Part shown: positions 17,101-35,985 of the stretch, piece by piece
Numbering within the stretch: the first letter of the stretch is position 1
Layout of the letters: every line of letters starts with the position of its first letter
Assembly: GCA_945870145.1 (NCBI GenBank)
Contig: CAMBQV010000008.1
Span: 1-37,243 of the forward strand
DNA length: 37,243 bases
Direction: 5' to 3'
DNA from: Akkermansia muciniphila
GTDB lineage: Bacteria; Verrucomicrobiota; Kiritimatiellia; RFP12; UBA1067
Notes under the pieces: generated by a model
Database searches by the model: none
Told to the model about the DNA's origin: nothing
What the model saw: the letters and a program-made list of their open reading frames with translations, nothing else
Made by a program: the position numbers and the translations under genes

Positions 17101-20100
17101 AACTGGCAAGTCCGTCAAGGTCAGCATCCTTGTACTCGTCTGTGACTGTTCCATCCTGTCCATTCGTGATGACCATCGCCACAAAGAGCTCCGGTTGCCC
17201 TGGGAGAAGCGCAGGCAAGGTTGTGGCACCTAGTGCATCAACAGGCGTCCCCGCGAACTGATTTTCCCAAGGATCGGGCAGCGCATCGCGATCCGTATCA
17301 ATCGAACAGGGATTCAAGCCGCCGCCTGCGATACAGGTGCCGCCGATATCTACCGCGTTGCCATATATAAACGCACGTTCCGCACCATCACCCATACCGT
17401 CATTATCCGTATCTCCGCTCCACGGATCCGTCGGCCAGAATTTATTGACCCAGTAGTTATCTGGATCATCCACGGGCCTAATGATAGTCACGACACCGGC
17501 CATCGGCTGATTCGTGATGCCGAAATAATAGAGGTTAGCATTTGTATACGGTCTAATCGAATCCGTCCCCCAGTACTCCCAATTAGACGCATCCACCCCA
17601 ACCCACGGGGTGTGGGTAAATACATTTACATTGCCCCCTGCGCCCAAAGGAACGGCGACATAGAGCTCCCAGCCATCAGGCACACCATCCCAGCCGCCCG
17701 TCGTAGCATCTGTATCTGGCGTGTGCGCGTGCGTCGTAAAGCGACTCCAGGACTCTTGAATCAGAATACGCCGGGTGTTATTAAAGACGATGGCATTGTT
17801 GTTCGAGGTATAGAGATTGATCGCCGTATTAAAGCGCGCAATCCAGCCCGTGTTATTGGTAGCGACCATACCATTCAGTTGAAGTTCGTACATGAACTTC
17901 AGTAGCAAGTATTCATCCACTGCGGTAAAGGGCCGCGTATCCGGGGCCATTCCTGCTGCCCAGGGGCCAAAGCGATCTGCATTATCATAGGGCCATCCAG
18001 CACGTGGCCCAGGGCCAGCTCCGTACCCGCCAAAGCGAGGGACAGTACCAATCCATGCGGTTCGAGGATCAAACAAGTACTCATTACGAACCTGGAAGTG
18101 CATGATCAGAGGATTTTCATTCGTGGCTGCAGGACTTGCAATCATATTGGTAGGCGTCAGAACAGCGTCGGCCACTGGACGACCTACTGCCCAGGGTCCA
18201 TTCGCATCATTACCATAGCGATAGGCGGTCGTCACTCTACCAGGATAATTCGTAAACGTGAGCGGGTCAAACGCTACAAAGTAGTGGTTCGTGGCAATGA
18301 TCAGAATCGGATCATTGAACACATCGAAGCCTCCGTTGGTGGTCACAACCTGAATGTGACGACGCGGTGCTGTGGAAATCGCGAAATAGTCTGCGTCGGG
18401 ATTATTCTGCATGGGCAGATTTCCGTCGCGACCGTCGCAAGGTTCGAAGCCATTCAAAACTTCCCAGCCATCCGCCATGATATCGCCATCGGTATCCCAG
18501 TTCGTGGGATCTGTTCCAAGGACAAGCTCTTCAACGTCTAAAAGCCCGTCATTATCAAAATCGTCTCGCCACAGGGGCTCTGAATATGCACTACGAGGCG
18601 ACCTCGGATCAAAGGCGGTAACGATCTCCGAGTCATCAATCAAGTCGCCCTGCGCGATATTAAACGGATTATAGCGGGAACCCACGCGTCCGTGAATGTT
18701 AGATTCATACCAGAACCAATACTCCCAGCCATCTGGGTAACCATCGTTATCGGTATCGTTTCGGGTCGGATCCGTCTCACGATCATCTGGCGTCCCCAAA
18801 TAACCATCGGTGCCGCGAATTTCCTTAAAGGCGGTAAAGGCATTCACCGCTATACCACTTGGCAATGTGCTCGGATTAGCCACTGGAGCGAAGCTTAAGA
18901 CCCCCTGATTATCACCCGTCGGATAGACTGGCAGGTAGTCCTCGTCCGCATTGTAACCACCGAGATTTTGGAACCAAATTCCGCTCAAGCTTGTAGCACT
19001 TGTGGCTCCGGCACTCGTGGCGTTCGTACCACTCACAAAATAGCTCTGCACCAGACGATCGGGCACACCGTCCTGATTCAAGTCGCCGTTATTGACGCCT
19101 ACGGGATTTTCCACGTCATTTGCATTATATTCAATGGTAAAGATTGCACTCACCTGTACGATATTACCATTGAGAGTTGTACCTGCGGCGCCCCCGGTGC
19201 CAACCGTTCCTGAGGGCAAGTTGATGATGGTTGAACGCGGTGCCAAGGGTTGGGTCACGTGCGTCGGGTCCTGGAAGGCTACAAGAGGTCCGTTCCACGC
19301 AAAGAAGTAACTGCTCTTACCGACGTCCTCTGGCAACGCATTCAGTATCGAAAGCGGGGTCGGCGACGGTATGGCCAGCAACTGTGCCGACATGTCGTCA
19401 GCACCGAAGTAGAAGGTATAGAAAAGACCCGCCGTATCATAGACTGAGGGGCTTGCATTCGTGGCGATGATGGTACCTTCTCCCAGTCTCGTAAGTCCAT
19501 TAAAACCGGCTGTATTGGGCCTGATCGGCAGGGCAATGATCTTCTTGGAGTCCTTAACAATGACAATGAAGTTGATAATCGTAATAGCACCATCTTTGTC
19601 TGTAGCGGTCAAGCTAACGGGCGTCTGCAAATTCGCTGCCATATACGTATGGGTTATTGACCCAGATCCGCCATTGGTCGTCGAGGAGGTGCCGTCACCC
19701 CATGTCCACACCAGTTGCATGTTCAGATTATCTGCCGGGACATCAATCACGGACCAGTTAAAGGTACACGGCTGTCCCACCGTGGCAATTGTATTCGTGC
19801 TTCCATTAACAGGAAGCTGGATAACGGGAGCTTTGTTCTGAACTCTAATCTCCCCTGCATTTATTTCTGTGTAAATGTTCGCTCCCACGGCACCCGAGGC
19901 AATGCGCGGTGTCACCGTAAAACCTGATGAGACACTTAACGCTGTACCATCTTGAACCTGGAAGTAGACCGTTTTGTTTGTTTGCGAAGGATTGAATTCC
20001 ACGAAGGCAGGAACCGTGATAGCACCGTTGAGCGCGTCGTTTGGAGGCGTCACATCAAGAAAAACGACCACACGATTTGTGATACCGACTGAGCTCGGAG

Positions 20101-22456
20101 GACGCGAGAGGTAAATCTCCATTGTTTTGTTAATACTGTCATCTTCAAAACTGAACGCAGAGCCCGGGGGGACCAAAACAGTAATTGAGGGAGGTGCCAC
20201 TACATTGATCGGGAAGGGGACTGTACCCACGCCACCATCCTTATCCGTCGCGACCATGAATACCGTCTGACGACCAATCGCATTAAAGGTTTTTGTCACT
20301 GTGCCAGTTGCACCCGTGCTAAACAGAGACGACCCATCCTCAAACTGGAATTCAACCGTGATGGGTGGAGCCCCGGTGACATCGGCTGCAATATCAGTTG
20401 CTTTATATCTAAACGTGAAGGGAGTATTTATGATAATAGAGTCATAAGGAGACACGGGAGACGTGGAAGGCGCTATGGGTTGGCTGGTGGGTTGCGTATC
20501 AACAGTAGGTGGATTGTTTAAGATAGCGACAAACCCAGCATAAGCCCTCGGATACTGGGCTTGCGCAGCAGCATTCGTAATGGTCGGCACAAGCAGAATG
20601 CCTGTAGCAGTGTCTAGCGTGCCGTCTTTGATCGTCATGCCATAGAATGCTGAATTACTCCGACCCGCCGCAACGGTGATATTCGTTATTGAAAGGCCAA
20701 GACAGTTATTCGCAGAGGAACCATCGGTAACATACTGTGCCACGACCGTGACCATGGTATCTTGCAGAGCTTCAGCCGAAAGAACAACTTGATACTTGGC
20801 TGTTGTATCTCCCTCATAATAGGTGGAGTCCGGACTATTGACCGCAATAGAGACGTTTGGCGGTTTGGGTGCCGGATTTATCGTGATTGTATGAGCCGGC
20901 ATCGTATAACTTCCGCCATCCGCATCTTTAATGGTCAGCGACACCGTGTAGTTGCGGGCAACGGGGCCAATCCCTGTATAGGTATGGCTAATGGATCCGA
21001 GATCCAAAAAGTTTGTCTGTGTGATACGTGTGCCATCGCCAAAATTCCATCTAAATTCAATTCCCCTTGCCATATCTTCAGTAACATCTGTCAGGTTTTC
21101 CCACTCAAAGGTCACAACCGTGTTCTCATCCTCCGTGGTTGGCGCATAAGCCCATTGGACACTCGGGGCAACATTTAAGACATTTAAACCACCAGGGTTG
21201 GAGATCGTATATTTCGAGGTATTCGTCGCCATCGGCGTGATAAGAACAAGGTAGTCAATGTCACTATCTTTAGTTCCGTTAATGACGTTAAAGGGATACC
21301 AGACCGAGGTCTCTTCGTTTTGTCTGACTCTATAAGAGGGTTGCGGCGTGATCACAATATTAGTCAAGGTACTGGGCTGGTGCGTGAGGGCGAAGCTAAC
21401 ATAGACGTCGTTGGTGGTGTCTGCCTCGGAGAGCACAATTCGGAATTCGCCTGTTCTTAATGCGTTAGTCTCTGAGAGGGTGGTCTGCTGGGCCAGTGTA
21501 TTTCTGAACTCAATACCGATCGTCGGCTCGCCTGGCGGCTCAATCTGGACAGTACTGGTGATAAAGTTGGTAATAGATGTAGCATTATTAACATAGTCTG
21601 AGGGTCGTTGAGCATAGACGGTTGCAATGGTCGGGATTGCATTGGTGTTTAAGCCCTTTATCGGGAAGTCCACATAATCAACCCCCGCAGGAATGGTCAC
21701 CTCGAGCGCCTTATTCGGAGATAAACCGACCTGAAGCAGATTGGTATGAGGCGTCCAGACCCAGACCTTGATCGGAACCGAGCTTGTCCCCCCCGAGTTG
21801 ATTCTCCAGTAAGTCGAAGGCGCCCGAGCGACGAGCGTCGGGGCATTCGCACTGTCAAAACTAAGGGTGTTCACTCGGATGTTCTGATATGCTAGGTTTG
21901 AGTCACCATATTCCACGACAGCATCCAACACCGGATTCCACTTCGGATTATTTAGTTTCCAAACCACATTACTTTTAATGCTTTCCGAGAAGGCCAAATA
22001 TATCCAGCACTGATTGTCGAGGATTGGATAAACTGACGTAACGTCTGTGAAAATCTTTAAAGGATCTGCCATGTCACCTGGACGAATCGTATAAGAAAAG
22101 GTCAAGTCTGTACGCGTAAGCTGATCATATGGGGCTCCTGTCCGCGAAGTCCTTTTAAGCGTAGCATACGCTGTTGAAGATCCGCCCTCCGAGCCTACTT
22201 GCATACGTATTTGCGGCTGAACATATATGGTGTTGAATAAATTGGAGACTACAACCGTCCCTTCGACACGGATTGTAAACTCTATAGTTGCTCCAGGCAC
22301 ATTATTAGGGGAAGTATTTCTATAATCCGAATAGAAACCAATCACATCACCGGCGGAATCCTGTGCCAGCGCACCTGTTGCACACATCATTCCGCAGACG
22401 GCCAAGGGGAGCACCATCTTCTTCACTAGATTACTGAACCGTGTTCTTGTATTCAT
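5108..22456 (-). CDS. Giant secreted multidomain protein (about 5,782 aa) with embedded I9-S8 subtilisin
   Basis: The ATG at 22456 is preferred over the in-frame GTG at 22471 because GGAG lies 9 bases upstream of the ATG and the product then starts directly with a signal peptide (MNTRTRFSNL..., cleavage after ALA31). Domains in order (approximate residues): a divergent beta-rich N-terminal region; PKD modules near 430-530, 670-755 and 880-970 (WNFGDG, FQFEDG, WTWGDG) separated by Calx-beta-like stretches; then about thirty thrombospondin type 3 calcium motifs (DTDNDG, DSDGDG, DTDDDG...). Among these sit six LamG-like modules (about 2070-2315, 2710-2875, 3085-3280, 3900-4080, 4085-4285, 4535-4720). 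An I9 propeptide (3314-3385) and S8 protease (3409-3709) carry Asp3439 (VIDTGVD), His3496 (HGTHCSG), Asn3587 (AAGNS) and Ser3657 (GTSMATPHV), so catalysis looks intact. The C-terminal about 900 residues have Fn3-like segments and one last DTDQDWFPD motif. No sorting signal or beta-barrel is seen. It is the second gene of the minus-strand operon. Likely role: calcium-stiffened cell-surface or secreted protease binding glycans. Confidence 0.93.
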   Translation of the reverse strand: MNTRTRFSNLVKKMVLPLAVCGMMCATGALAQDSAGDVIGFYSDYRNTSPNNVPGATIEFTIRVEGTVVVSNLFNTIYVQPQIRMQVGSEGGSSTAYATLKRTSRTGAPYDQLTRTDLTFSYTIRPGDMADPLKIFTDVTSVYPILDNQCWIYLAFSESIKSNVVWKLNNPKWNPVLDAVVEYGDSNLAYQNIRVNTLSFDSANAPTLVARAPSTYWRINSGGTSSVPIKVWVWTPHTNLLQVGLSPNKALEVTIPAGVDYVDFPIKGLNTNAIPTIATVYAQRPSDYVNNATSITNFITSTVQIEPPGEPTIGIEFRNTLAQQTTLSETNALRTGEFRIVLSEADTTNDVYVSFALTHQPSTLTNIVITPQPSYRVRQNEETSVWYPFNVINGTKDSDIDYLVLITPMATNTSKYTISNPGGLNVLNVAPSVQWAYAPTTEDENTVVTFEWENLTDVTEDMARGIEFRWNFGDGTRITQTNFLDLGSISHTYTGIGPVARNYTVSLTIKDADGGSYTMPAHTITINPAPKPPNVSIAVNSPDSTYYEGDTTAKYQVVLSAEALQDTMVTVVAQYVTDGSSANNCLGLSITNITVAAGRSNSAFYGMTIKDGTLDTATGILLVPTITNAAAQAQYPRAYAGFVAILNNPPTVDTQPTSQPIAPSTSPVSPYDSIIINTPFTFRYKATDIAADVTGAPPITVEFQFEDGSSLFSTGATGTVTKTFNAIGRQTVFMVATDKDGGVGTVPFPINVVAPPSITVLVPPGSAFSFEDDSINKTMEIYLSRPPSSVGITNRVVVFLDVTPPNDALNGAITVPAFVEFNPSQTNKTVYFQVQDGTALSVSSGFTVTPRIASGAVGANIYTEINAGEIRVQNKAPVIQLPVNGSTNTIATVGQPCTFNWSVIDVPADNLNMQLVWTWGDGTSSTTNGGSGSITHTYMAANLQTPVSLTATDKDGAITIINFIVIVKDSKKIIALPIRPNTAGFNGLTRLGEGTIIATNASPSVYDTAGLFYTFYFGADDMSAQLLAIPSPTPLSILNALPEDVGKSSYFFAWNGPLVAFQDPTHVTQPLAPRSTIINLPSGTVGTGGAAGTTLNGNIVQVSAIFTIEYNANDVENPVGVNNGDLNQDGVPDRLVQSYFVSGTNATSAGATSATSLSGIWFQNLGGYNADEDYLPVYPTGDNQGVLSFAPVANPSTLPSGIAVNAFTAFKEIRGTDGYLGTPDDRETDPTRNDTDNDGYPDGWEYWFWYESNIHGRVGSRYNPFNIAQGDLIDDSEIVTAFDPRSPRSAYSEPLWRDDFDNDGLLDVEELVLGTDPTNWDTDGDIMADGWEVLNGFEPCDGRDGNLPMQNNPDADYFAISTAPRRHIQVVTTNGGFDVFNDPILIIATNHYFVAFDPLTFTNYPGRVTTAYRYGNDANGPWAVGRPVADAVLTPTNMIASPAATNENPLIMHFQVRNEYLFDPRTAWIGTVPRFGGYGAGPGPRAGWPYDNADRFGPWAAGMAPDTRPFTAVDEYLLLKFMYELQLNGMVATNNTGWIARFNTAINLYTSNNNAIVFNNTRRILIQESWSRFTTHAHTPDTDATTGGWDGVPDGWELYVAVPLGAGGNVNVFTHTPWVGVDASNWEYWGTDSIRPYTNANLYYFGITNQPMAGVVTIIRPVDDPDNYWVNKFWPTDPWSGDTDNDGMGDGAERAFIYGNAVDIGGTCIAGGGLNPCSIDTDRDALPDPWENQFAGTPVDALGATTLPALLPGQPELFVAMVITNGQDGTVTDEYKDADLDGLASYQEYMTQSLRCYRYDIPKGAIPNDATVVDPFTGNIGQPMDITFEVGALFEAVSNEWDQCMLGWPAPASVLWWMRRAGPNGYCSTDPNNPDSDYDSMDDFYEMYHGLNPLLGNGIRPDFLDDRVAYAWIVNGFPLTMYDFNWWMFVQTPVIGFTMDFNLYPWLNGMPTADPDADGLLNLEEMLIVNMPLPENYNTDPTPLWMTDPSNINSLTARFYPPYGYTGYKSLLVPLYRDMWFWPAGLPPFFTYQFEMNEGYDTDNDGVSDKDELVANRNTKSNPLDSEDQLRRQALWFAGAQSAATTPDLYTDGATVIGQQFTGMNDAFRSFTVELWARPEWATSTNEQILIERTFDYGQSDASQPAGAPRMRRNFLIGIAPDGRLFGGFDNPGGHDPHTDSVRLYGQFIQSNKWVHITIRMDGRTQEFALFVNGQQQGRMATALIPATGIDPALATNPDEPPVIRNGSLTLGAANLAFSSLALGYGSLANFPPMFPYMTWDATWANNYANFYRGWIDEVRVWDGPRSDTEIADTFKKRLTRADLDDNRARLVIELGQGRGRTALHLASDLYLSPILLNYYTFNNLFSAHEEQYVAQVPRGFNAPEVNVNRPDSDGDLIGDVGGAAVGWWREFLLRNTVYTNYHYLPWIENVPAHLPRINSIINTSNLFEVTYGLVLDSVYWSGTSAGGVAQTNSFPMSNNPYTFTYGSQIPVDLLPLGQTWAKQCTDFWDDLGATASWLENSDTTFDGLPSSWIRRNYGSYDPANNYTNFWTQMYTGANALYVALGLTNGQAYQYDLALGWLPSATAYNDYNAAYTSVADTDMDGMPDWWEHIFGLDAVNPLGEHGADGDPDNDGLSNIYEYWSLTDPSRAFSYNDGILDSDRDFDGDLLLNGEEMIFKTLPQLTDTDDDGFEDSREVMFGWDPTLSTSPGQRRVLSLDGTANSYIEVPDFPYGAYTNRLALESFILSADLFPLVAPTNDADLIRREITPGVVNYMFTLNSDMTVTAAFTPKDYSTTIVLTTDFVVPLNKWTSVQTVLDPLNDTLKIYFNGKEVAAVSTTYIARSKAFYGEARTIVGRNFAGYMDNVSISDTTRSCLVYNFDDGSSFNSTTPTPAFGSVVTQYEQAGQVEDTAAAVSAVAADWKGPVWLNRFSAAGTLAGNATMIYFNAEGITEDQLDSDEDGLSDAWEIANGFDPYNPDSNGNTIADGDEDTDGDGLSNYYEYLAGLNPRKASTDGVTLDIERDDDGDGLMNQLEQANGTMPNHADTDDDGIGDYEEIYGTNVAGTQAVGLSDPLNSLSPFIPRGLVLDGNGAVIVTNQARHALIEWTLGAWVNPSALANGTVLARSFSNGLANYELGIEVDGTILRPFARYSAVGVNGVAYNVKVSHENLAPGSIPVYGASNEVIRLIQNDWTHLAAVYAPADHMLRLYINGDCVAYRTDAIPLPIATDERFTDQPQLVIGARRVTGPGTYVNGFIGALDDVRFASYAVDYRGIRNMMGEQLIIDTRGVVDTNIVAVAQMPSTLTKPATEAVPNEFLVGMRQGINPATLIQKFKTDYKVDTVRQLKLANALYVRIPQGVDATLAKQKIKADTNVKYIEPNYIVHATQQKTPNDPRFPELWGMDNTGQLNGTADADIDAPEAWAVATGSDSMIVAVIDTGVDYNHPDLAANMWVNPDEIPANGIDDDGNGIIDDVYGMKAENGVVTGDPMDDIDHGTHCSGTIGAIGDNSVGVAGVNWKVKIMALKFLGPFGGTTADGITCIEYALEKKVMVSNNSWGGGGYSQALYDTLAKARDQGHLFIAAAGNSSDDNDKIPHYPSSYDLDNIVAVAATDNNDEMAYFSCYGATSVDIAAPGQDILSTLPVSMGSYGTMSGTSMATPHVTGAAALILSVNSSLNYLAVISALYNNADSLASLDGKILTGARLNIGNIIPAMQGGAGGLRVRTLSGWFRFDDGGTTIEDFTINANWRKNWQFAGRKLGSAAVTNSVAYLSYGDTDLDGLPDWWEETVGLDPLKAMSDDLVLDGERDDDRDGLLNFSEYRASLARLARSERGLSPTLSDTNSDGVTDANEDTDNDGLSNISEQNIHLTDPGNADTDDDGFLDGAELASRTLPTDAVSPKQNIALTFSGGAVSNTVVIADKVNGEYTLRHSAEQWTVEAWIYPTAYVAGRQVLLSRKVTELGLYNYELGLSNGFPYVSFDVLGGSRVECHGGVQVPLNTWTHLTGRFALGEPLDMNHLTLFANGIAVGETRTGLRCATGAGDLVLGSSGFAGQMLNARVWRIAQSDLAVFEMMRSELLGGNVGNRSGYLQVEADGFVKESATTLKPNGQTVDMLQEDWTLECWVRVQNPGVAGRLIARRNLSDQTDDDFNYALGLTPAGTIQGRYNLEYGFWTDPGQPFFVWVAGTDPTINNITGEIPVDDGDWHHVAYVRDANFCYIYVDGMLDTKQSRVRIPPIPNIIDDPMNYARVRAQGGPLILGEGAGDAWMTSLDEIRIWNRALPVVELKKVAEKNLAGIEPGLVSYFNFDFQMGKTADERAGIRDPDLEYGIYIRNARCITDLQDGPPITFDPLLSIQGVALVGMFNAIDGGLTLEDRIYRQGFKPFTQAAYAGRLGAGVSFTNRSAGFWVIEGLDSDGDGLPDEWESSNGLDPYSKDTDSDDIDDPLDDDDGDGLSYLAEYQAGTDPWDQDSDDDGFLDAMEDSDNDGLSNADEAAIGTNLGLADTDDDGMLDMDEGFDAQSRSVWAQNSLLPMLNRYLSLTGTAYLQVPAGRHFAEPTPMMRWTSDGKSFTIILDVNPSRYPLAGETNWLATCDLGHGVYNYTLQLLADGRVEAKTTLDPITLTNLTLTSTVSLPTNAWSTVTFMVEAESLRANLLINGEVAGFSTLPVLKSLITAQNSLSLVDVRFGEGFEGKMDNIAFYREILTAQTLKTLRDTENNRLGLLGYETENLYGCYTFDDGTSAVDNSGDIIQNNVSLKAGWRSGQVQDFACTFWPANKQRLANFTLQDWNMGWRNAGTIVGTGAKILPYSGEDINTKDSNGDGMPDAWSKRNGIDPYGPNASLGDMDNDGLSNYAEYLISTRYALAGVNPRSAQSLNQLPDYFNKPSGSKLTYGFMFSDHDFIEDWWEGNYMPSVASPFIYDPLQDSDADGWSNWAEARYSQAVMSTRPDIKERVIIGGRTITEIPVPLIETYVSYKGVQAAGSVVIQAYANPDMNGTPDAKWILAIGGDVEAQTLPLGFYEDKVVKTYLTPGSVVPGTFIIQFTDTLSGLSITNGYDRDGILYANALTAGAKDTPIGTINYVSGEIVVNMGFYQGEQLIVTAAQAGAVTNAATYVDVDASYIDVFYSTKLLGGWPQKLYLGRPTEGMIKGGTNYFFAFLDVGGTADSWDAGEPAGISTPFATVIGWDKNLLSLQLTDYTPYNLRLSLSTGLRSEDVVLAGGGAQGGGAVAAGTGYRRVRIQRSSIVTSGFTQHTIFDKVIYGRDYIHEGDIMNLPRFGGYGLDWGLIEVDYPLNAWKAVYKVYVGDADVLTQNTLIATFTNQFDTVRTVAAPVAPAHGAYVYSIRPSFSWSVVSSNNGYNAFAFELRSGGQAGTLVSPITARQVPTKDASTGYYVWEAPFYMGDKMVNGSPTVNNGVYYWRVQMLNSKYSTWSSTEWSPWRIFRWDVNTPLPPVGTATNLNGSSAGYGQLRAVVKYFGAVTNTVANRVILQAFQNRSFTGQPAAQYAFSASQNTMLTNLSLSATNAIPMRGLKPGVYYVRAFIDSNTNSVLDSWESWGYANYLGEQKSYYDVRPVTVSYSSITPLATVYIEDADTDQDWFPDAYEYEEYRAFSNFLEQTGPDQTSTNRGDGELNFSLLNPGSFPEVMMAMSAGSSEQQEAIIKLVSTEGQVVTPAVKPSVIIENLSFGKSGPSLAFDLTPAQPAKYTSALFTALMDTISAQAAQTTYRYNVRFSETLNAPRPWTTIAESGTVSVVNGETIKSPDYKNPVAGANGFFYVEIE
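11270..12610 (-). other. I9 propeptide plus S8 subtilisin module embedded in a LamG/TSP3 array
   Basis: Within the giant protein, LamG module 3 breaks off after GEQL (near 12610). A propeptide-like stretch follows (EFLVGMRQ ... YVRIPQGVD ... VKYIEPNYIV, about 12515-12305), then the full subtilisin domain. Codons of the catalytic residues: Asp 12140-12142, His 11969-11971, oxyanion Asn 11696-11698, Ser 11486-11488. An NPDEIPANGIDDDGNGIIDD segment is a probable calcium loop. Downstream the sequence resumes with SGWFRFDDGG (near 11255), which matches the strand that directly ends other LamG modules (YNFDDG near 13815, YTFDDG near 8240). The protease therefore looks like an insertion of about 450 residues. 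Confidence 0.8.
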
Positions 22457-22465
22457 GACTATTTT

Positions 22466-22469
22466 CTCC
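22466..22469 (-). promoter_or_regulatory. Shine-Dalgarno deciding the giant gene's start
   Basis: GGAG on the minus strand, 9 bases before the ATG at 22456. The alternative GTG at 22471 overlaps this site and would add only MEKIV before the signal peptide. Confidence 0.7.
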
Positions 22470-22505
22470 ACTTAAACTAACTGATCTAATCAAAAATGAA
22501 TCGGG

Positions 22506-26701: not shown

Positions 26702-27100
26702 ATGAAAATAATCAACGCATCTCAAGCCCCCGCTGCGATCGGCCCCTATTCGCACGCCATTGAAACCCATGGACTTCTCTTCTGCTCAGGACAGCTCCCC
26801 ATCAACCCTGCCAGCGGCAACATTGAGGTGGCAGGTCCCGGGGAACAGACCATGCAGGTGCTCCTCAACCTTCGCGCGGTCTTGACTGCCGCAGGCTCGG
26901 ACCTGAGCAAGGTACTCAAGACCACTGTCTTCCTCACGGATATGGGAGACTTCCCCTTTATGAATAAGGTGTATGAGGAGATGTTCGCCGGCCATAAACC
27001 TGCACGATCCACCGTTGAAGTGGCTCGCTTGCCTAAAAACGCCCGTGTCGAGATTGAAGCTGTCGCTGTTACTGCCGTGCCACATTCTTGTGGCACATAA
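26702..27100 (+). CDS. ridA: RidA/YjgF family imine deaminase
   Basis: 132 residues from the ATG at 26702, chosen because MKIINASQAPAAIGPYSHA matches the family N-terminus; an in-frame ATG at 26687 would add five residues. RidA hydrolyses reactive enamine/imine intermediates released by PLP-dependent dehydratases. Key family residues are present: Arg102 in ARSTVEVARLPK and Glu119 in VEIEAVAV. There is also SGQLPINPASG in the N-terminal half. The C-terminus has a short extra VPHSCGT tail. It lies 31 bases after folD and 4 bases before the sugar transferase gene. The Shine-Dalgarno is weak for either start. Confidence 0.93.
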   Translation: MKIINASQAPAAIGPYSHAIETHGLLFCSGQLPINPASGNIEVAGPGEQTMQVLLNLRAVLTAAGSDLSKVLKTTVFLTDMGDFPFMNKVYEEMFAGHKPARSTVEVARLPKNARVEIEAVAVTAVPHSCGT

Positions 27101-27104
27101 AAAG

Positions 27105-27677
27105 ATGAAACGCGCCTTTGATATACTGCTCACCCTCATCACAGCGCCACTCTGGGTGCCGCTAGGGGTAGCGGTGGCGTGTGTTGTCGCTGCAGGTATT
27201 GGCTTCCCGATCTTCTTTATTCAAGAGAGGCCAGGGCTGAACGAAGCGCCCTTTCGTTTGATTAAGTTTCGAACCATGCGTCCGGGTGACGCTCCAGATG
27301 CCGAGCGGCTAACGGGCCTTGGTAACTTCCTGCGTGCGACCAGCCTCGACGAACTACCCGAACTGCTCAATGTGCTGAAGGGCGAGATGTCCCTCGTAGG
27401 ACCACGCCCCCTACTGCTGCGCTACTTGCCTCGCTACACGCCCGAGCAGAAACGCCGACACGAGGTTCGTCCTGGCCTCACGGGTTGGGCTCAGGTCAAT
27501 GGACGAAACGCGCTCACGTGGAAAGAGAAATTTGCGTATGACTGCTGGTATATCGATCATCAATCATTCGCCTTGGATCTGAAAATTTTAGGACTGACGC
27601 TCTGGCGCGTCGTGACGCGTCAGGGAATCAACGCAAACAACGAAGCCACCATGGGTGAATTTAGAGGAGACACATGA
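27105..27677 (+). CDS. PglC-like initial sugar phosphate transferase (monotopic phosphoglycosyl transferase)
   Basis: 190 residues. The ATG at 27105 was chosen because MKRAFDILLTLITAPL matches the family start; a longer open frame from 26973 would overlap ridA by about 130 bases. Features: one N-terminal membrane-entry helix (about 5-40), FIQERPG, FRLIKFRTM, the catalytic Asp82-Glu83 pair in SLDELPELLNVLKGEMSLVGPRPLL, RPGLTGWAQVNGRN, and a C-terminal LDLKILGLTLWRV. The family moves a sugar phosphate from a UDP-sugar to undecaprenyl phosphate on the inner membrane face, the first step of a lipid-linked glycan. The small size (no long N-terminal domain) fits the PglC type. Its stop overlaps the next gene's ATG (ATGA), and PglD- and PglE-like genes follow, suggesting that the first sugar is a diacetamido-trideoxy hexose such as bacillosamine (inference). 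Confidence 0.93.
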   Translation: MKRAFDILLTLITAPLWVPLGVAVACVVAAGIGFPIFFIQERPGLNEAPFRLIKFRTMRPGDAPDAERLTGLGNFLRATSLDELPELLNVLKGEMSLVGPRPLLLRYLPRYTPEQKRRHEVRPGLTGWAQVNGRNALTWKEKFAYDCWYIDHQSFALDLKILGLTLWRVVTRQGINANNEATMGEFRGDT

Positions 27678-28294
27678 AAAAAATCATCATCATCGGCGCA
27701 AGTGGCTTTGGCAAGGAAGCCACATGGATACTGGAACGCATGAGCCAATCTGGCCAGGCCTTGGGCCTACTGGGTTTTTGTGATGACGCCCCTGACAAAC
27801 AAGAGGGACACTTCGTGGGCGTCCCTCTCCTTGGCAACGTCGAAGCAGCAGCAGCGCGTCTTGCAGGCGCACGCTTCTTCTGCGCGATCGGCAACAATCG
27901 CATACGCCAATCCGTGACCGCGCGCGCCCTCGCCGTCGGACTCCTCCCCTTCACGCTTGTGGATCCCACCGCGATCATTGCACCGGGCACAAAAATTGGC
28001 GAAGGCTCCTTCATCGGAATCAACAGCATCGTCTCAGCAGGGGCCACAATCGGAAACCACGTGATTATCAACCATCAAGCCTGCATCGGCCATGATGCCC
28101 GGCTGGCTGACTTTGTGCAGGTCTGTCCAGGTGCCCGCATCTCCGGCGGCTGTGAGATCGGAGAAGGCGCACTCCTTGGTACAAACGCCTCCACCATTCC
28201 CCTCATTCAGATAGGCGCGTGGTCCACACTCGGTGCTGGCACGACCGCACTCACCAGCCTTCCTGCCCACACCACACATGCACGTTTAAAATAA
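27674..28294 (+). CDS. PglD/NeuD-like sugar O/N-acetyltransferase (left-handed beta-helix)
   Basis: 206 residues, typical for the family. The N-terminal Rossmann-like part has IIIIGASGFGKEA (residues 4-16) for sugar-nucleotide binding. The C-terminal part has hexapeptide repeats (IIAPGTKIGEGSFIGINSIVS... onward). The family acetylates a UDP-4-amino sugar using acetyl-CoA. The presumed general base is His140 in IGHDAR. The residue nine positions later, His in C. jejuni PglD (His134, acetyl-CoA contact), is Gln149 here. The start overlaps the transferase stop by 4 bases, implying coupled translation. The DegT-type aminotransferase two genes downstream could supply its substrate; a PglF-like dehydratase is not in the window. 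Confidence 0.9.
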   Translation: MKKIIIIGASGFGKEATWILERMSQSGQALGLLGFCDDAPDKQEGHFVGVPLLGNVEAAAARLAGARFFCAIGNNRIRQSVTARALAVGLLPFTLVDPTAIIAPGTKIGEGSFIGINSIVSAGATIGNHVIINHQACIGHDARLADFVQVCPGARISGGCEIGEGALLGTNASTIPLIQIGAWSTLGAGTTALTSLPAHTTHARLK

Positions 28295-28297
28295 AGC

Positions 28298-29717
28298 ATG
28301 CGCAAGTACTTCTATCTACTGCTATTTGTCTTTTTCTTTCTCCTGTATGCAGCAACTGCGCAACGGGGAGTGAGTTGGCAGGACAGCGGCGAGTTTCAAT
28401 GGCGCATCCTCTCCGGAGATCTGCGTTGGTTTGCTGGACTTGCACGCGCACATCCGCTCTACCTGCATCTGGCGACGCTGTTTAGCGCTGCATTCCCCGC
28501 GTCCGCGTTCTTCTTCTCAACCCACTTACTCAGCGCTGTTGGCATGGCGGGTGCGGCAACCCTCATCGCCTTACTGGTTACACTGCAGACACACCGCTGG
28601 ACATGTGGCTTACTTGCTGCGCTCCTCTTCGGCCTTTCGCACATGCCGTGGTGGCTCGGAACCATTGCGGAGGTTGATGCCTGGGGCTGCCTTTTTCTCG
28701 CTCTGGAGCTTCTCGGCCTGCGCTGGGCGCTTGAGAAACAAACCGCGCTTCCTTGGCTCTTATTGGCCTTTCTCAATGGACTCGACTTCAGCCTGCACAA
28801 TATTGCGCTTCTGAATATTCCCATCTTGTTAATCGCGTGTCCGACTCGTTATTGGTTGGGGTGTTTAGCTGGATGGTGCGTGGGCTGCTCGCCCTTATTA
28901 TATTTGTTACCGCACGAAATCAAAGTGTACGGCATCGGCGGGGGCATCAAGAGTCTCTTGTTTGGATATGACTACGCGCACGCCGTTCTTGGAACGACCT
29001 TTAAATTCAAAATGGTTCTAGCAAGCTATGCCCTCTTTTCCATCAACCTCATGAACCCCGCTTGGTTCACGGCCCTGAGACCGCTGTGGCGGGAAAAAGG
29101 ATCTTTCTCACATGCCCTCAGGGGCTTGTTGCTGATCCATGCGCTCTTCTTTCTACGCTACTTCATTCCCAGTCAAGCGTTGTTTTCAACAACCACCCTC
29201 CTGCTGCTCTCTGTATGGGCTGGCCTCGGCGCCTCCTACCTGTCACAACGTGCCCTACTCCGTCTCTCGCTAGGGTCTATTGTTTGTTCGATAACTGTCC
29301 CCATACTCCTACTCTTTGCTGTTGACACCTATCACCTTTTCCCAAATCGACAGAGAGCCCTGCCCTTCCGAAAGGAGGCTCGCTATTGGCTCTTGCCGTG
29401 GAAACACAACGAGACCTCTGCTCAACAGTTTGTTGACCATATCGGGAAACTACTCCACGATACGGATGTCTTGATTGCTGACCCCACAATTGCGGGCCCT
29501 CTGATGGCGGCCCAAAAGGCTGGGGTGCTTTCCACAGGCTGGCGTTTGATCACGCCCTGGTCAGGCGAGACAGATGATATGCTGAAAGCCTTAGTCGGTT
29601 CTCAACAGCGAATATTTGTTCTTTCGCCCGTAGCTGGTTATACGCCAGCCGTCTTCTTAAACGGATCCTTCCGTTTTGAAAAAGAGGATATCCTCTATCG
29701 CGTCAGGAGTGTACATC

Positions 29718-29725
<8 letters not shown>
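28298..29725 (+). CDS. DUF2723-type multi-pass membrane protein (predicted glycosyltransferase)
   Basis: 475 residues with about ten hydrophobic helices in the first 370 residues and a soluble C-terminal part of about 100 residues (from RKEARYWLLPWKHNETSAQQF). After the first membrane helix it has WQDSGEFQ (Asp29-Ser30-Gly31-Glu32), and after a short loop LARAHPLYLHLATLF. Together these match the DSGE...HP(P)xYP(L) signature of DUF2723 (TMEM260-like, GT-C fold) proteins, where the acidic residues in the first outside loop are thought to be catalytic. Such proteins are predicted to transfer a sugar from a lipid carrier on the outer face of the membrane, in some cases to proteins. It starts 3 bases after the acetyltransferase and overlaps the next gene by 8 bases. 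The donor and acceptor cannot be read from sequence; an undecaprenyl-linked product of the upstream genes is one option. Confidence 0.8.
29705..29709 (+). promoter_or_regulatory. Shine-Dalgarno deciding the aminotransferase start
   Basis: AGGAG, 8 bases before the ATG at 29718, inside the end of the preceding gene. It favours this start over the open frame beginning at 29676. Confidence 0.7.
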
Positions 29726-30869
<1,144 letters not shown>

Positions 30870-30885
30870 AGAGAGAACGCTTACT

Positions 30886-32580
30886 ATGACACAGAATACA
30901 GTCAATCGTCTTCGGTGGGGTGCAATATCCCTCTTGATTGTCTTTGCTTGGTTTAATTATTACGACATGTTTCAATATGCGATTTACATGTTTAATAAGC
31001 CTGACGAGGATATGTCACACGGCTGGGTCGTGCCTTTTGTCAGCGCGTATGCGCTTTGGACACAACGCAAGCAGTTTTCCAAAGTAGCGGGTGTTCCTTC
31101 TGCACGAGGCTTAGCCTGGGTCGTTGTCTCCCTCCTTCTGGCGTGGCTGGGCGGCCGGGGCGGCCAGTTGCGGATCAACCAACTCTCTTTCATCGGGCTC
31201 CTCTGGTCGGTTCCGTATGCCTTCTGGGGCAAGGGGGTGGCTAGGCTCATGCTATTCCCTGCAGCTTATCTGTTGTTCACGATTCCGCTGACGAATGCAC
31301 TCGACTTCTTTACGATCTTTTTACGGCTCTTCTCCTCGGGCACCGCCGCCGCGATCTTAAACGGCTTCGGCATGGAGATTGAACGTTCGGGAACCGCGCT
31401 CTTCTCCCGCGTGCCTGGGAGTGAGTTCAATGTCGATGTCGCGGATCCGTGCAGTGGCATTCGCTCGCTCTTTGCCATGATGGCGCTGACCGTTTTCTAT
31501 GGCCATTTCACACTAAAGACCCGCCTCCAGAAAGGCCTTCTCTTTGCCTGCTCCATTCCCATCGCTGTCATCGGCAATATGTTCCGCATCTTCTCGATCT
31601 GCCTGATCGCCAATTTTTTTGGCGAGAAGATTGCCACAGGTTTCTACCATGATTACTCAGGATATGTTATTTTCGTCATTGGTGTCTTATTGATGTTCCA
31701 AGCTGCGGCTTTCTCAAAAATAGCGGATCGATGGCTATGCTCACGCTGGACATGGCTCGGGCAGTTATCAAAGCAGGATGACATCGGTGCTCATGTCCCC
31801 TCACCATCCCAAGACGCCCCTGCCCAGAAGAGATTACCTGGCCTGCTCGTTGTCTCACTGGCCCTCCTCCTGGTCAGCTCTGTTTTTGCCGCGCTCCTCT
31901 TCTCTGGGCCTCCGACGTATGATGAGACCCGCTTTATTGCAAGCTCGCTTCCGTTGCAGGTTCGCAACTTGACCAGTGACAAACCTTGGTTCTGTCACAA
32001 TGACCAGTGTGCTGTTTCGTTTGAAGAACAGGAGTTGATCAACAAAGGACAACAGACCAACACACTCTTCAGTTGTCTCACCTGTCGACAGCCCCTCTAC
32101 ACCTTTTCGCTAGGGGAAAAGACCTTGTTGCCGAAAGACACAACGATCCTCAAGCGTAATTATAAATCCTCTGCTGGCCTCAGCTACTCCGTCAGTGTGG
32201 TCTTGTCAGGCAAGAGCCGTGCCAGCATTCATCGTGCAGAAATGTGCCTGCCTGCGCAAGGCTTTGTCATGCTCGATGCCTACACCCTGCCCTTGAAGAC
32301 CCCGTCTGGAAGACCTAAAAACATACGTGTCATACGGGCCCAGCGCTCCAACTCAACCAGTGAGTTCGCGCTGGTCTATTGGTTTGCGAACCGAACGGAT
32401 GAGTGTACGTCACATTACAAACGGATTCTGCTAGACATGTGGGACCGCTCTGTTCATAATCGAATCAATCGATGGGCCATGATTGCGATTAACGTACCGA
32501 CACCCCTAGATAATGACCAATCGATCGAAGCCCTTGAAGCCTTTACAGAAGAGTTATACCAGAAGATCCTCTTGCCCTAA
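30886..32580 (+). CDS. Exosortase fused to an EpsI domain, with a Cys4 zinc-ribbon-like linker
   Basis: 564 residues from the ATG at 30886 (GAGAGA about 10 bases upstream). A longer frame from 30607 only shadows the aminotransferase gene. Residues 1-285 form the multi-pass exosortase/archaeosortase membrane domain. The triad is intact: Cys189 in ADPCSGIRSL, Arg234 in GNMFRIF, His255 in FYHDYSGY. After another membrane helix (about 318-340) comes a segment with CHNDQC (Cys370, Cys375) and CLTC (Cys397, Cys400), a zinc-ribbon-like spacing. The EpsI/DUF3485 domain follows, with SLGEKTLLPKDT (408-419) and SIHRAEMCLPAQGF (447-460). Exosortases cleave C-terminal sorting tails (PEP-CTERM type) of exported proteins at the inner membrane and are linked to exopolysaccharide loci; the neighbouring glycan genes fit that. 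No substrate with such a tail is in the window. Confidence 0.93.
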   Translation: MTQNTVNRLRWGAISLLIVFAWFNYYDMFQYAIYMFNKPDEDMSHGWVVPFVSAYALWTQRKQFSKVAGVPSARGLAWVVVSLLLAWLGGRGGQLRINQLSFIGLLWSVPYAFWGKGVARLMLFPAAYLLFTIPLTNALDFFTIFLRLFSSGTAAAILNGFGMEIERSGTALFSRVPGSEFNVDVADPCSGIRSLFAMMALTVFYGHFTLKTRLQKGLLFACSIPIAVIGNMFRIFSICLIANFFGEKIATGFYHDYSGYVIFVIGVLLMFQAAAFSKIADRWLCSRWTWLGQLSKQDDIGAHVPSPSQDAPAQKRLPGLLVVSLALLLVSSVFAALLFSGPPTYDETRFIASSLPLQVRNLTSDKPWFCHNDQCAVSFEEQELINKGQQTNTLFSCLTCRQPLYTFSLGEKTLLPKDTTILKRNYKSSAGLSYSVSVVLSGKSRASIHRAEMCLPAQGFVMLDAYTLPLKTPSGRPKNIRVIRAQRSNSTSEFALVYWFANRTDECTSHYKRILLDMWDRSVHNRINRWAMIAINVPTPLDNDQSIEALEAFTEELYQKILLP

Positions 32581-32582
32581 GT

Positions 32583-33656
32583 ATGACCTTAAAACAAAAA
32601 TTATTTTTAGACAACATTCGTTCACTCACCCTCGGCCTGGTGATTGTGCTTGGGGGTATGCACTTTAGAGAGCTGTTGCCGCTAATTCTTGAGTTTAAGA
32701 TCACCGCTCTTTCTCCCTCGCAACTGTTGACCTACGAATGGATCATCCCACTTGTGAGTGCGCTCATCCTGCTGGAGCGACGACGAAACATTCGCCTAGC
32801 CGCGAGACTTCCTTCGTGGAGAGGCGTGCTCTATATGACGCTCTATCTGATCGCCTTCGCCACCTCCATCCAACTCAAAAAGCCACCTTTACAATTCCTT
32901 TCGCTCGTAGGATTGACCTACTCGGCCTCGTATGCGCTGTGGGGCAAAGGCGTCGCAACTCTCTTACGTTTTCCGTTGAGTCTGCTCGTCTTCGCCATTC
33001 CCGCTACTTTTTACTTAGACTTCTTCGGGAACCTCTCACCTCTCTTCGGCCCCTTGTTCTGCTGGCTGAGTAACGCGATTGATTTATCGGGATTTGAATT
33101 CTTTCGAAATCTCTTTGAATTAAAAGATTTCACGCTTAAGCCTTACTCGCCTTCCAGTGGCATCCAGTCACTCTTCGCCATTAGCGCCGTGACCTTCTCT
33201 TTGTCGCATTTCACGGTCACGAAAACGTCCCAACGTTATCTACTCTATGCCTGCATCCTTCCGCTCACCTTTGCGGTGGATATTGTACACTCGTTCGTCA
33301 TCTGTTTGATCGCGGCTACACTAGACCCAACCTGGGCTCAGGAATTCTATAATTCCATGTCCCACTATGTCGCCTTTTTTATTGCGATTCTCTTTATCTT
33401 CCAACTGGCCAATCTGATCGTCACGATCAGTGCGCGCTTAAAAAAGCCTTCGCCTGACGAGTGGCTCAAAGGTGTTGAAAAGATTGACAAACGAGCGGAA
33501 GAACCTGAGCAAAACCTCTTTCACTCCATCATTATCGTCTTTGTCGTGGTATTATTGTCCTTAGCGACCTACATGTTTGCCGTTGAGACAACCCCTAGAA
33601 ATATGAGCCCGAAAAAAGCTCCCCCCGCAGCGCCGACCTACCGTATTACACGGTAA
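32583..33656 (+). CDS. Exosortase-fold paralogue lacking all three catalytic residues
   Basis: 357 residues, 2 bases after the active exosortase. The multi-pass topology and sequence follow that protein: ALWGKGVATLLRFP versus AFWGKGVARLMLFP, and SGIQSLFAISAVT versus SGIRSLFAMMALT. Over the triad region the two align without gaps at an offset of two residues, and each catalytic position is changed: Cys189 to Ser191, Arg234 to His236 (DIVHSF), His255 to Asn257 (FYNSMSHY). Arg192 of the CSGIR motif is Gln195. The EpsI domain is absent; instead there is a loop of about 35 residues, one more membrane helix (about 310-330) and a short basic, proline-rich tail ending APTYRITR. The frame is intact, so it appears maintained. 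Possible roles: subunit or regulator of the active enzyme, substrate recruiter, or a changed chemistry with Ser-His-Asn. Confidence 0.87.
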   Translation: MTLKQKLFLDNIRSLTLGLVIVLGGMHFRELLPLILEFKITALSPSQLLTYEWIIPLVSALILLERRRNIRLAARLPSWRGVLYMTLYLIAFATSIQLKKPPLQFLSLVGLTYSASYALWGKGVATLLRFPLSLLVFAIPATFYLDFFGNLSPLFGPLFCWLSNAIDLSGFEFFRNLFELKDFTLKPYSPSSGIQSLFAISAVTFSLSHFTVTKTSQRYLLYACILPLTFAVDIVHSFVICLIAATLDPTWAQEFYNSMSHYVAFFIAILFIFQLANLIVTISARLKKPSPDEWLKGVEKIDKRAEEPEQNLFHSIIIVFVVVLLSLATYMFAVETTPRNMSPKKAPPAAPTYRITR

Positions 33657-33660
33657 TCCA

Positions 33661-34341
33661 TTACTGATGGAAGGGCATGGCTTGCAGGCTTTCTAAGGAG
33701 GGCACACAGGGCATGAGGAGCCACTCCTGCTGAGGGGTCATAACAAGGGCCGCCCCCTGTAAATATCCGATCCAGTCTTCTGCCGTGTAGCTCTTAGCCT
33801 TGACCCCTGCTAACAAGGCTGCAATAAAGATATCGTGCGACACCAGAACCGTCAGCTGCTGTGTCGTCTTCGCCTTCAGCCATGCCACCATCTTAGGTGT
33901 TGCAACCGCGACATCATGGGAATAGAGTGCAGACCCCGTATGCAAATAATCCAGCATATAGTTAATATACCCACGCCGCATCATCTCGGCTGGCAACTTC
34001 TCAATATCATCATAATAAAAATTCTTTAACCCCAGAATTGGCTCCTCTACAACCGTAGCCTCGGAGCAACCTATGCCCTCCGCAAACATTTTCGCCGTCA
34101 ACTGGCACCGCATCATGGGACTCGACAGGAAGCGAACATCCGCGTGTCCAGACAACAACTGCCCCGCCTCGCGCGCCATGGCTTCGCCACGCGGCGTCAG
34201 GGCGAGGGCATGCCCGAAGGTCGTATCGCCTGGGACAATCGGTGGCCGCTCCGAATGCCGGATCAGCAGGGAGACCTTACAGCCCTCTGCTAAAAATTGT
34301 CTGATCTTCTTGAAATCAATTGTCTCTGTCAAAATGTTCAT
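33661..34341 (-). CDS. Histidine phosphatase superfamily protein (branch 1)
   Basis: 226 residues from the ATG at 34341 (AAGG 8 bases upstream); a longer frame to 34404 would run into the repeat region. LLIRHSERPP (Arg28-His29) matches the RHG catalytic motif with Ser in place of Gly. The second-half motifs are SSPMMRCQLTAKMF (phosphate-binding Arg) and LVSHDIFIAALL (second His). LTPRGEAMAREAGQLL follows the usual LTxxGxxqA pattern. No signal peptide is evident. The substrate is not predictable; the family includes phosphoglycerate mutases, SixA-type protein phosphatases and cobalamin or sugar phosphatases. It converges on the exosortase cassette with only 4 bases between stops, so it is a separate unit. 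Confidence 0.88.
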   Translation of the reverse strand: MNILTETIDFKKIRQFLAEGCKVSLLIRHSERPPIVPGDTTFGHALALTPRGEAMAREAGQLLSGHADVRFLSSPMMRCQLTAKMFAEGIGCSEATVVEEPILGLKNFYYDDIEKLPAEMMRRGYINYMLDYLHTGSALYSHDVAVATPKMVAWLKAKTTQQLTVLVSHDIFIAALLAGVKAKSYTAEDWIGYLQGAALVMTPQQEWLLMPCVPSLESLQAMPFHQ

Positions 34342-34370
34342 AAACATTGCCTTGCATGCTAATTCATTTT

Positions 34371-34474
34371 TTACCGCAGAGAACGCAAAGATCGCATAGA
34401 TCACCTTCGAAATACTTTGTCTTGCAGTTCTGGGGCTTCTCTTTTCTTTGTGTTCTATGTGTTCTTTGCGGTAA
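34371..34474. repeat. Inverted-repeat element with 9-base periodic arms
   Basis: Left arm TTACCGCAGAGAACGCA (34371-34387); the right arm 34458-34474 reads TTACCGCAAAGAACACA on the minus strand, 15 of 17 identical. Both arms continue inwards as degenerate copies of a 9-base unit like AGAACRCAW. No open frame or transposase lies inside, so it is a small non-coding element, possibly MITE-like, able to fold into a long hairpin. Confidence 0.75.
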
Positions 34475-34504
34475 TAATTCTCAGTCCTCTAAATCCTATC
34501 AAAA

Positions 34505-34564
34505 CTCTGCGCCAATCTGTGTTCATCTGTGGCAAGCAACCTCCGTGCTCTCCGTGACTCCGTG
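34505..34564. repeat. Short periodic repeat blocks (ATCTGTG and CTCCGTG)
   Basis: ATCTGTG occurs at 34515-34521 and 34525-34531 (period 10) in a context CTCTGCGCCAATCTGTG. CTCCGTG occurs at 34541-34547, 34550-34556 and 34558-34564 (period 8-9). With the adjacent inverted-repeat element they fill the spacer between tilS and the phosphatase gene. They resemble low-complexity intergenic motifs I recall from other environmental bacterial genomes; this has not been checked. Confidence 0.65.
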
Positions 34565-34572
34565 TTAAACTA

Positions 34573-35985
34573 TTATCGCGCCACTTCAATCCGTAGACTC
34601 TTCGCATGATTCGAGCGCACTGCAAAGCGATCCGCAATGCGATACCCGGGGATCCAGACAATCTCGTCACCACAAACCAAGACGGGGATACCATCTCGCG
34701 TATACTCCGGCACCTTCCCATCCACAAAAATATCCTGGAGTTTTTTGGTGCCCTTCATTCCATATGGCACCATGCGGTCACCTGGTTTTCGCCCCCTGAC
34801 CACCAGCGGCCGACCGTTTAAAACTTCCGGGTTAATGGTACAAACCGCTGGATACACACCGATTCCCTGCGTGACACTCTCAATTCCTTGCACCGAACGG
34901 CAGGTGAATACCAGGTTATCCCAGCGCGTCTTACCGCGCAACCTAACCTTCGCCTCAGGACGTTGCTGTGGAACACCTTTGATGATTCGGAGTGCGCCCA
35001 CCTGATAAATCACGTAGCCGTTTTCGGTCAATTGAATTTTATCGTCTGCCTCCATGGCGCATAAGCGGTCTACCCCTTCGAAGCCGCTGCACTGGGGAAG
35101 TTCATACTGCCAGAGCCAGAGCCTCAACACGCGACGTTGAAGGGCCAAGGGCGCTGTTCGTAAGCGTTTTACATCCAACGCGTTCTCAGGGCCTCCCAGC
35201 AGGCAGTCAGCAAGCAGAGCCTGCGACAGTTCTTCCAAGAAAGAATCCTCTTCGCGCAGAATCTCTGCGCTTTTACAGAGATTAGAACGTACACCGACAC
35301 CAAAATGCTTCTCCAGCATCGGAAGGATCTCATGACGCATCCTGTTGCGTGGAATGGTCACATCCTTGTTTGTCAGGTCTTCGCGCCATTTCTTTTTTTG
35401 CTGTTTCAGCCAGTCACGCAGGGCAGAACCTGTGACAGAAAGCAACGGACGTATAAAGCCTCTCGCCCGTGGTTTCAAAGGTGCCAAGCCTGTCGCACCT
35501 GCCCCGCGCATAAGGCGCAGCATGAGCGTCTCAGCCACATCATCAGCCTGATGTCCAGTGGCAATCGCATCTAGCTTGTGCTTCGTTCGACAGGTTTCGA
35601 AAAATTTTTGGCGCACCTCCCGTGCCGCCATCTCCATCGAGACTGCTTCCTGCAGATGTGCCGTGACCGCGTGGCGTTCGACCACGCACTGTACGCTGAC
35701 TTTCTTGGCCAGCGCCTTGACCCATTTCGCATCTTGTGCAGAGTCACTACGAAGTCCATGATCAAGATGAAGAAGGAAGAGTTCGATCTTATTTTTTTTA
35801 CAGGGCGGCGCCAGCAGATGGAAGAGCGCGACAGAGTCCGCCCCGCCCGAGAGTGCGATGCCCAAGCGCTTCACGCCCTGCAACAGCCCCTCTTTTTCAA
35901 CAAAGCGCTGCACGGTCTCCTCCAGGGTATCTACCGCCTGGCAGTAAGATCGGTTTCCACTCTGTTTTCTGTGTGTTACGCCCAT
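34573..35985 (-). CDS. tilS: tRNA(Ile)-lysidine synthetase TilS
   Basis: 470 residues, normal for full-length TilS. It attaches lysine to C34 of the CAU-anticodon tRNA-Ile so that it reads AUA. The N-terminal PP-loop ATPase motif SGGADS is at 46-51, followed by LLHLDHGLRSDSA and ATGHQADDVAETLMLRLMRGAGATGL. The C-terminal TilS domain has VRGRKPGDRMVPYGMKGTKKLQDIFVD and IPVLVCGDEIVWIPGYRIADRF. The start ATG overlaps the stop of the upstream ATPase gene (TGATG), and GGGGG lies just before it, so translation is probably coupled. The unusual partner is noted as a finding. Confidence 0.97.
   Translation of the reverse strand: MGVTHRKQSGNRSYCQAVDTLEETVQRFVEKEGLLQGVKRLGIALSGGADSVALFHLLAPPCKKNKIELFLLHLDHGLRSDSAQDAKWVKALAKKVSVQCVVERHAVTAHLQEAVSMEMAAREVRQKFFETCRTKHKLDAIATGHQADDVAETLMLRLMRGAGATGLAPLKPRARGFIRPLLSVTGSALRDWLKQQKKKWREDLTNKDVTIPRNRMRHEILPMLEKHFGVGVRSNLCKSAEILREEDSFLEELSQALLADCLLGGPENALDVKRLRTAPLALQRRVLRLWLWQYELPQCSGFEGVDRLCAMEADDKIQLTENGYVIYQVGALRIIKGVPQQRPEAKVRLRGKTRWDNLVFTCRSVQGIESVTQGIGVYPAVCTINPEVLNGRPLVVRGRKPGDRMVPYGMKGTKKLQDIFVDGKVPEYTRDGIPVLVCGDEIVWIPGYRIADRFAVRSNHAKSLRIEVAR

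Follow-up and report, generated by a model that had tools for sequence, protein, structure and literature searches.

A putatively inactive exosortase paralogue kept by selection directly behind an intact exosortase-EpsI fusion

The window, i.e. the whole stretch of 37,243 nucleotides that was analyzed, carries on its forward strand at positions 32583..33656 an open reading frame of 357 amino acids with an ATG start, whose product is an exosortase homologue (PF09721) and is referred to here as pseudo-exosortase. Its exosortase domain extends over residues ~46-277 and is followed by a single extra transmembrane helix (residues 309-335; 33507..33587) and a 22-aa tail, and the protein contains no EpsI domain. 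The gene starts 2 nt after the end of an intact exosortase-EpsI (DUF3485) fusion on the same strand (30886..32580; 170.3 bits for the exosortase part, 56.1 bits for EpsI/DUF3485), in which the codons of the catalytic Cys, Arg and His (31450, 31585 and 31648) as well as the SIHRAEMC motif of the EpsI domain (31861..32565) are intact. Further upstream, also on the forward strand, lie surface-polysaccharide genes (26973..30869) for a sugar transferase, a NeuD-type acetyltransferase, a TMEM260-like membrane glycosyltransferase and a DegT aminotransferase. On the other side follows a convergent conserved gene on the reverse strand (33661..34404), 89% identical at the amino acid level in the sister species, which we take, judging by eye, to be phosphoglycerate-mutase-like (PGAM). 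A mostly non-coding segment at 34351-34650 is 97-98% identical between the two species and thus above the genes on either side, and the reverse strand carries one long open frame (5108-22471, 5787 aa) whose start resembles a signal peptide.

An alignment of the window protein with 35 exosortases of its own family and order bore out a preliminary description of this DNA, made from the sequence alone, with regard to the replacement of the catalytic triad by Ser191, His236 and Asn257, the numbering of these residues and the gapless fit of the active-site region to the upstream protein, which carries C/R/H at positions 195/240/261, a constant offset of 4. At the position of the catalytic Cys the gene has a TCC codon (33153..33155, PSSGIQS versus PCSGIRS), D233-I-V-H236 (33279..33290) stands in place of the N-x-x-R motif, and N257-S-M-S-H261 (33351..33365) in place of H-x-x-x-G. 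All other homologues covering the region, except the orthologue described below, have C/R/H at these positions, and the C, N, R and H residues are common to 50 of 50 triad-intact homologues, rows that had been preselected for the intact motif. Among the six invariant residues by which exosortases are recognized, C-x-G, N-x-x-R and H-x-x-x-G (Haft 2006, PMC1569441), five are lost and Gly193 is the sole survivor, so that the window protein falls outside this definition. The change reaches further into the domain: of 48 near-invariant columns, defined by conservation in at least 85% of 46 intact exosortases, 27 are altered here, compared with at most 11 in any intact exosortase. The earlier statement that the neighboring residues are conserved consequently does not hold.

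Despite these replacements, the protein belongs to the exosortase family by its domain model, since it matches PF09721/EpsH over nearly its whole length (63.8 bits, cut-off 25.7, profile positions 22-252 of 254). In contrast, all curated NCBIfam exosortase cut-offs (TIGR02602, XrtA-XrtW) are missed, with scores of 38.9 versus 105.55 bits for TIGR02602 and 60 of 400 bits for XrtD, and TIGR04178 reaches 18.8 of 23 bits. The AF2 model, based on 40 sequences, is helical and of moderate confidence (mean pLDDT 77.9, pTM 0.69), while that of the live fusion is better (pLDDT 88.8, pTM 0.86). Neither model gave a match at E ≤ 0.001 in the PDB structure comparison, nor did the sequence of the live fusion find a relative in the PDB. 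The best Foldseek matches of the live-fusion model include DcrB, EagT6 and PA94 (probability 0.5-0.94, E 0.02-0.35), which are not significant and may at most offer a lead to the fold of the EpsI domain (31861-32565).

A single orthologue was found, in the sister genome of the same genus (G001; L026:6170-7243); it has the same length and is 84% identical at the amino acid level. Its triad positions are Ser, Arg and Ser (D-I-V-R and S-S-S-S-Q at the second and third motif), so that the loss of Cys and His is common to both species, the Arg is lost only in the window gene, and Gly and Arg remain of the six classical invariants. The preliminary description had proposed to look for conservation of the replaced residues, and of these Ser191 is indeed kept, while His236 and Asn257 are Arg and Ser in the orthologue; orthologues with an intact triad, which would have spoken against its reading, did not appear in the genomes searched. 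The nucleophile is thus missing in the one orthologue known. No further full-length orthologue was present in 115 genomes of the family, 162 of the order and 346 of the class, and a contig scan with just two N-terminal peptide patterns returned the same contig of the sister genome, which leaves two members in total; the conservation of the pseudo-exosortase among orthologues is that of one pair. Both of them (2/2) sit directly behind an exosortase-EpsI fusion, as the earlier description had noted for the window, and the 2-nt spacing is identical. A related paralogue fragment in the sister genome (L025; N-terminal half, 49% identity, catalytic part missing) lies elsewhere, behind ExbB/ExbD-like genes, and is cut at the contig end. 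Since this fragment shares changed columns with the pseudo-exosortase, the family is probably older than the split of the two species.

Between the two species the pseudo-exosortase shows a dN/dS of 0.18 (bootstrap 0.12-0.25; 0.24 by YN00), with values of 0.17 for residues 185-275 and 0.14 for the C-terminal part, based on ~97 synonymous and 71 amino-acid-changing differences, and the frame is free of stops and indels in two separate assemblies. Maintenance by selection is therefore well supported, in agreement with the earlier view that this is not simple decay. In the tree the pseudo-exosortase is nested within a group of fusion-type exosortases from the same family (97*), with a long stem and short tips, as would be expected from fast change followed by constraint. 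Moreover, its transmembrane helix 309-335 corresponds in position to the helix in front of EpsI in the live fusion (model residues 310-336), and the retention of this linking helix together with the absence of EpsI suggests a duplicated fusion gene minus EpsI as the likely source. The loss of the catalytic residues, the retained fold, as far as the helical AF2 model describes it, and the purifying selection are those of a pseudoenzyme, and the sequence indicates a catalytically dead, selection-maintained paralogue of the fusion's exosortase domain.

The two sides of the gene junction probably have different histories. The live exosortase-EpsI is only 59% identical at the amino acid level between the species, with saturated dS, and the upstream aminotransferase and membrane glycosyltransferase are 73% and 45% identical, respectively, whereas the pseudo-exosortase has a dS of about 0.4-0.5 and, together with the convergent gene and TilS, falls within a range of 0.4-0.8. 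Identity climbs from about 60-70% to more than 80% at the junction, and one side of it was probably exchanged. The low identity for members of one genus points to the polysaccharide side as the exchanged part; the drop on the upstream side of position 32583, which extends back to 28298, suggests the exchange of a polysaccharide cassette. The divergence of the live neighbor supports neither tight partner-specific co-evolution nor a strictly partner-specific complex, and the independent exchange or divergence of this neighbor and the upstream genes makes an obligate specific partner less likely. Contacts formed by conserved parts would nevertheless survive such a swap, and the dedicated two-component membrane complex that the preliminary description had put forward is one candidate arrangement.

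Dead exosortases also came to light in other lineages. For this purpose, weak or second copies were read individually in genomes of the phylum that encode several exosortases. Nearly all of these copies keep the triad. Candidates with T for G in HxxxG or S for N in NxxR, as well as masked or cut frames, proved on inspection by eye to be false alarms of the pattern search and were not counted as dead. Eight further dead exosortases belong to the same class. One of them, in a class relative (G406; L088:2047-3075), is the immediate upstream neighbor of a live exosortase, itself followed by EpsI, and this tandem (L088:932-3075) is part of a polysaccharide locus. The other seven occur in family f12 (G173, G206, G180, G492, G491, G381 and G493), each in a second exosortase-EpsI module. 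A second module with a dead exosortase (L230, L231, L232, L233, L234, L235 and L178) was seen in 7 of 7 f12 genomes showing a second copy, and in G299 of the same family just one copy was seen. The dead exosortase of G173 is fused to EpsI in one protein, and in G206, G180, G492 and G491 the next gene is EpsI with an intact SIHRPEVC motif; the frame of G492 ends early and may be damaged. A DUF3485 match beside the dead copy of G381 lacks the HRxExC motif, and no motif was found in the EpsI-like match adjoining that of G493. Altogether, EpsI with the HRxExC motif stands beside or is fused to 8 of 10 dead copies.

Across the ten aligned dead copies the Cys position is occupied by S, S, D, R, T, T, T, P, A and L, while nine copies retain the Gly of CxG and seven the Arg, which is invariant in the five f12 copies that were aligned. 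Six of the seven f12 regions, read over 14-19 kb, showed no intact exosortase, and an ORF with a triad-like pattern lies ~8 kb from the dead copy of G493. The best tree, in which long branches are present, places the dead copies in two separate sets, although a single origin of all of them is compatible with the data (AU p 0.32) without being established. Screening the class genomes with a profile built from the dead f12 copies, with at most 6 first-look candidates scored per genome, added no members beyond f12. The dead exosortases of other lineages may do something different from the window protein. With respect to other exosortases, the window's own genome encodes two further, divergent triad-bearing copies (C139, L043; C58, L044), each beside a large membrane protein and the former ending in a PEP-CTERM-like tail, and a genome of a related genus (G029) contains five triad-intact exosortases of this subfamily (L024, L028, L029, L030 and L031).

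The position behind the fusion, the retained fold and the recurrence beside EpsI are best explained if the pseudo-exosortase serves the exosortase-EpsI/polysaccharide machinery as a scaffold or as a membrane partner that does not cleave, a reading to which we assign a probability of roughly 0.5. A fusion-type exosortase was probably duplicated within this bacterial family and its copy then lost the EpsI domain and the Cys/His chemistry; the duplicate would have changed quickly and would now be constrained in its genus. Most likely it resides in the inner membrane and is a partner of the exosortase-EpsI/exopolysaccharide system that does not itself cleave, and there the retained helical fold and the S-G-I loop at the former Cys site could hold a substrate without cutting it, candidates being a C-terminal sorting helix or a lipid-linked glycan. 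Alternatively, fold and loop might dock and space EpsI or the live exosortase. The recurrence beside EpsI, mostly with an intact motif, and the six of seven f12 regions without a detected live exosortase favor EpsI-tied scaffolding or binding over the pure regulation of one partner. In a broader sense, dead copies in at least two lineages make it quite possible, although not more likely than not, that pseudo-exosortases are a recurrent, selected exosortase-EpsI component in this class. The fold would then have a second, non-proteolytic job, in which it serves EpsI and the polysaccharide machinery as scaffold or receptor.

The strongest competitor, which we consider rather unlikely, is a function of the protein's own in surface-polysaccharide assembly, e.g. 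the binding of lipid-linked sugars, in which case no partnership with the neighbor would exist and the adjacency would result from tandem duplication. The far greater divergence of the neighboring allele next to a conserved pseudo-exosortase, the break between them and the related copy at another locus of the sister genome agree with this explanation, but the common strand and the 2-nt spacing kept in both species do not, nor does the finding that dead exosortases elsewhere also adjoin EpsI. It seems improbable that the protein competes with the live exosortase for sorting signals as a decoy or substrate trap and thereby tunes PEP-CTERM processing. Four canonical PEP-CTERM proteins above the cut-off in the window's genome (G000) and the combination of a retained fold and SGI loop with a lost nucleophile would fit such a regulator; however, the sister species keeps the gene with no PEP-CTERM protein above the cut-off, though its exosortase triad is intact, and most f12 dead copies have no live exosortase detected nearby. 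Very improbable is an active enzyme with a new Ser-based mechanism (Ser-His or Ser-Asn): although the orthologue shares Ser191, alone of the three replacements, the partner residues N, D and G have disappeared as well, and in other dead copies the Cys is replaced by T, R, P, A, D or L. The Ser-His(-Asn) chemistry that the preliminary description had entertained was rejected because the orthologue has Ser/Arg/Ser. Finally, that the gene is a recently formed, decaying pseudogene or an artefact of assembly, as the loss of all three triad residues might suggest, is hardly credible and was rejected in view of an upper bound of 0.25 on dN/dS and a frame intact in both assemblies.

A dead exosortase kept by selection beside EpsI separates a non-cleaving role of the fold from its protease role and, together with its recurrence beside EpsI, suggests that the exosortase fold has a job independent of cutting. 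EpsI has no known function (PMC1569441), and such loci represent a natural test of what it needs. No paper on pseudoenzymes or catalytically inactive members among exosortases was found in the open full-text literature, subscription journals being mostly outside this scope.

Compared with known systems, the pseudo-exosortase resembles exosortase EpsH/Xrt (PF09721, TIGR02602; XrtD/XrtA/XrtW-like) in its homologous helical domain of ~230 residues and in its exopolysaccharide locus with EpsI next door, but differs from it by the absence of the catalytic Cys, Arg and His, the altered near-invariant columns and the scores below the curated NCBIfam cut-offs. Archaeosortase ArtA, likewise polytopic, belongs to the same superfamily with the shared signature model TIGR04178. 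The activity of ArtA depends critically on Cys173, Arg214 and Arg253 (PMC9263693), whereas the pseudo-exosortase lacks the Cys and one of its two orthologues also lacks the Arg. The dead exosortases of G406 and f12 share with the window protein the exosortase domain, the loss of the Cys, the Gly of CxG in all but one case and the adjacent EpsI or EpsI-like sequence, but they mostly keep the Arg and form a separate cluster in the tree. In rhomboid pseudoproteases, such as iRhoms and derlins, a polytopic protease fold has lost catalysis and is kept as a non-cleaving partner, and although these proteins form an unrelated family, the role suggested here for the pseudo-exosortase would be analogous to theirs.
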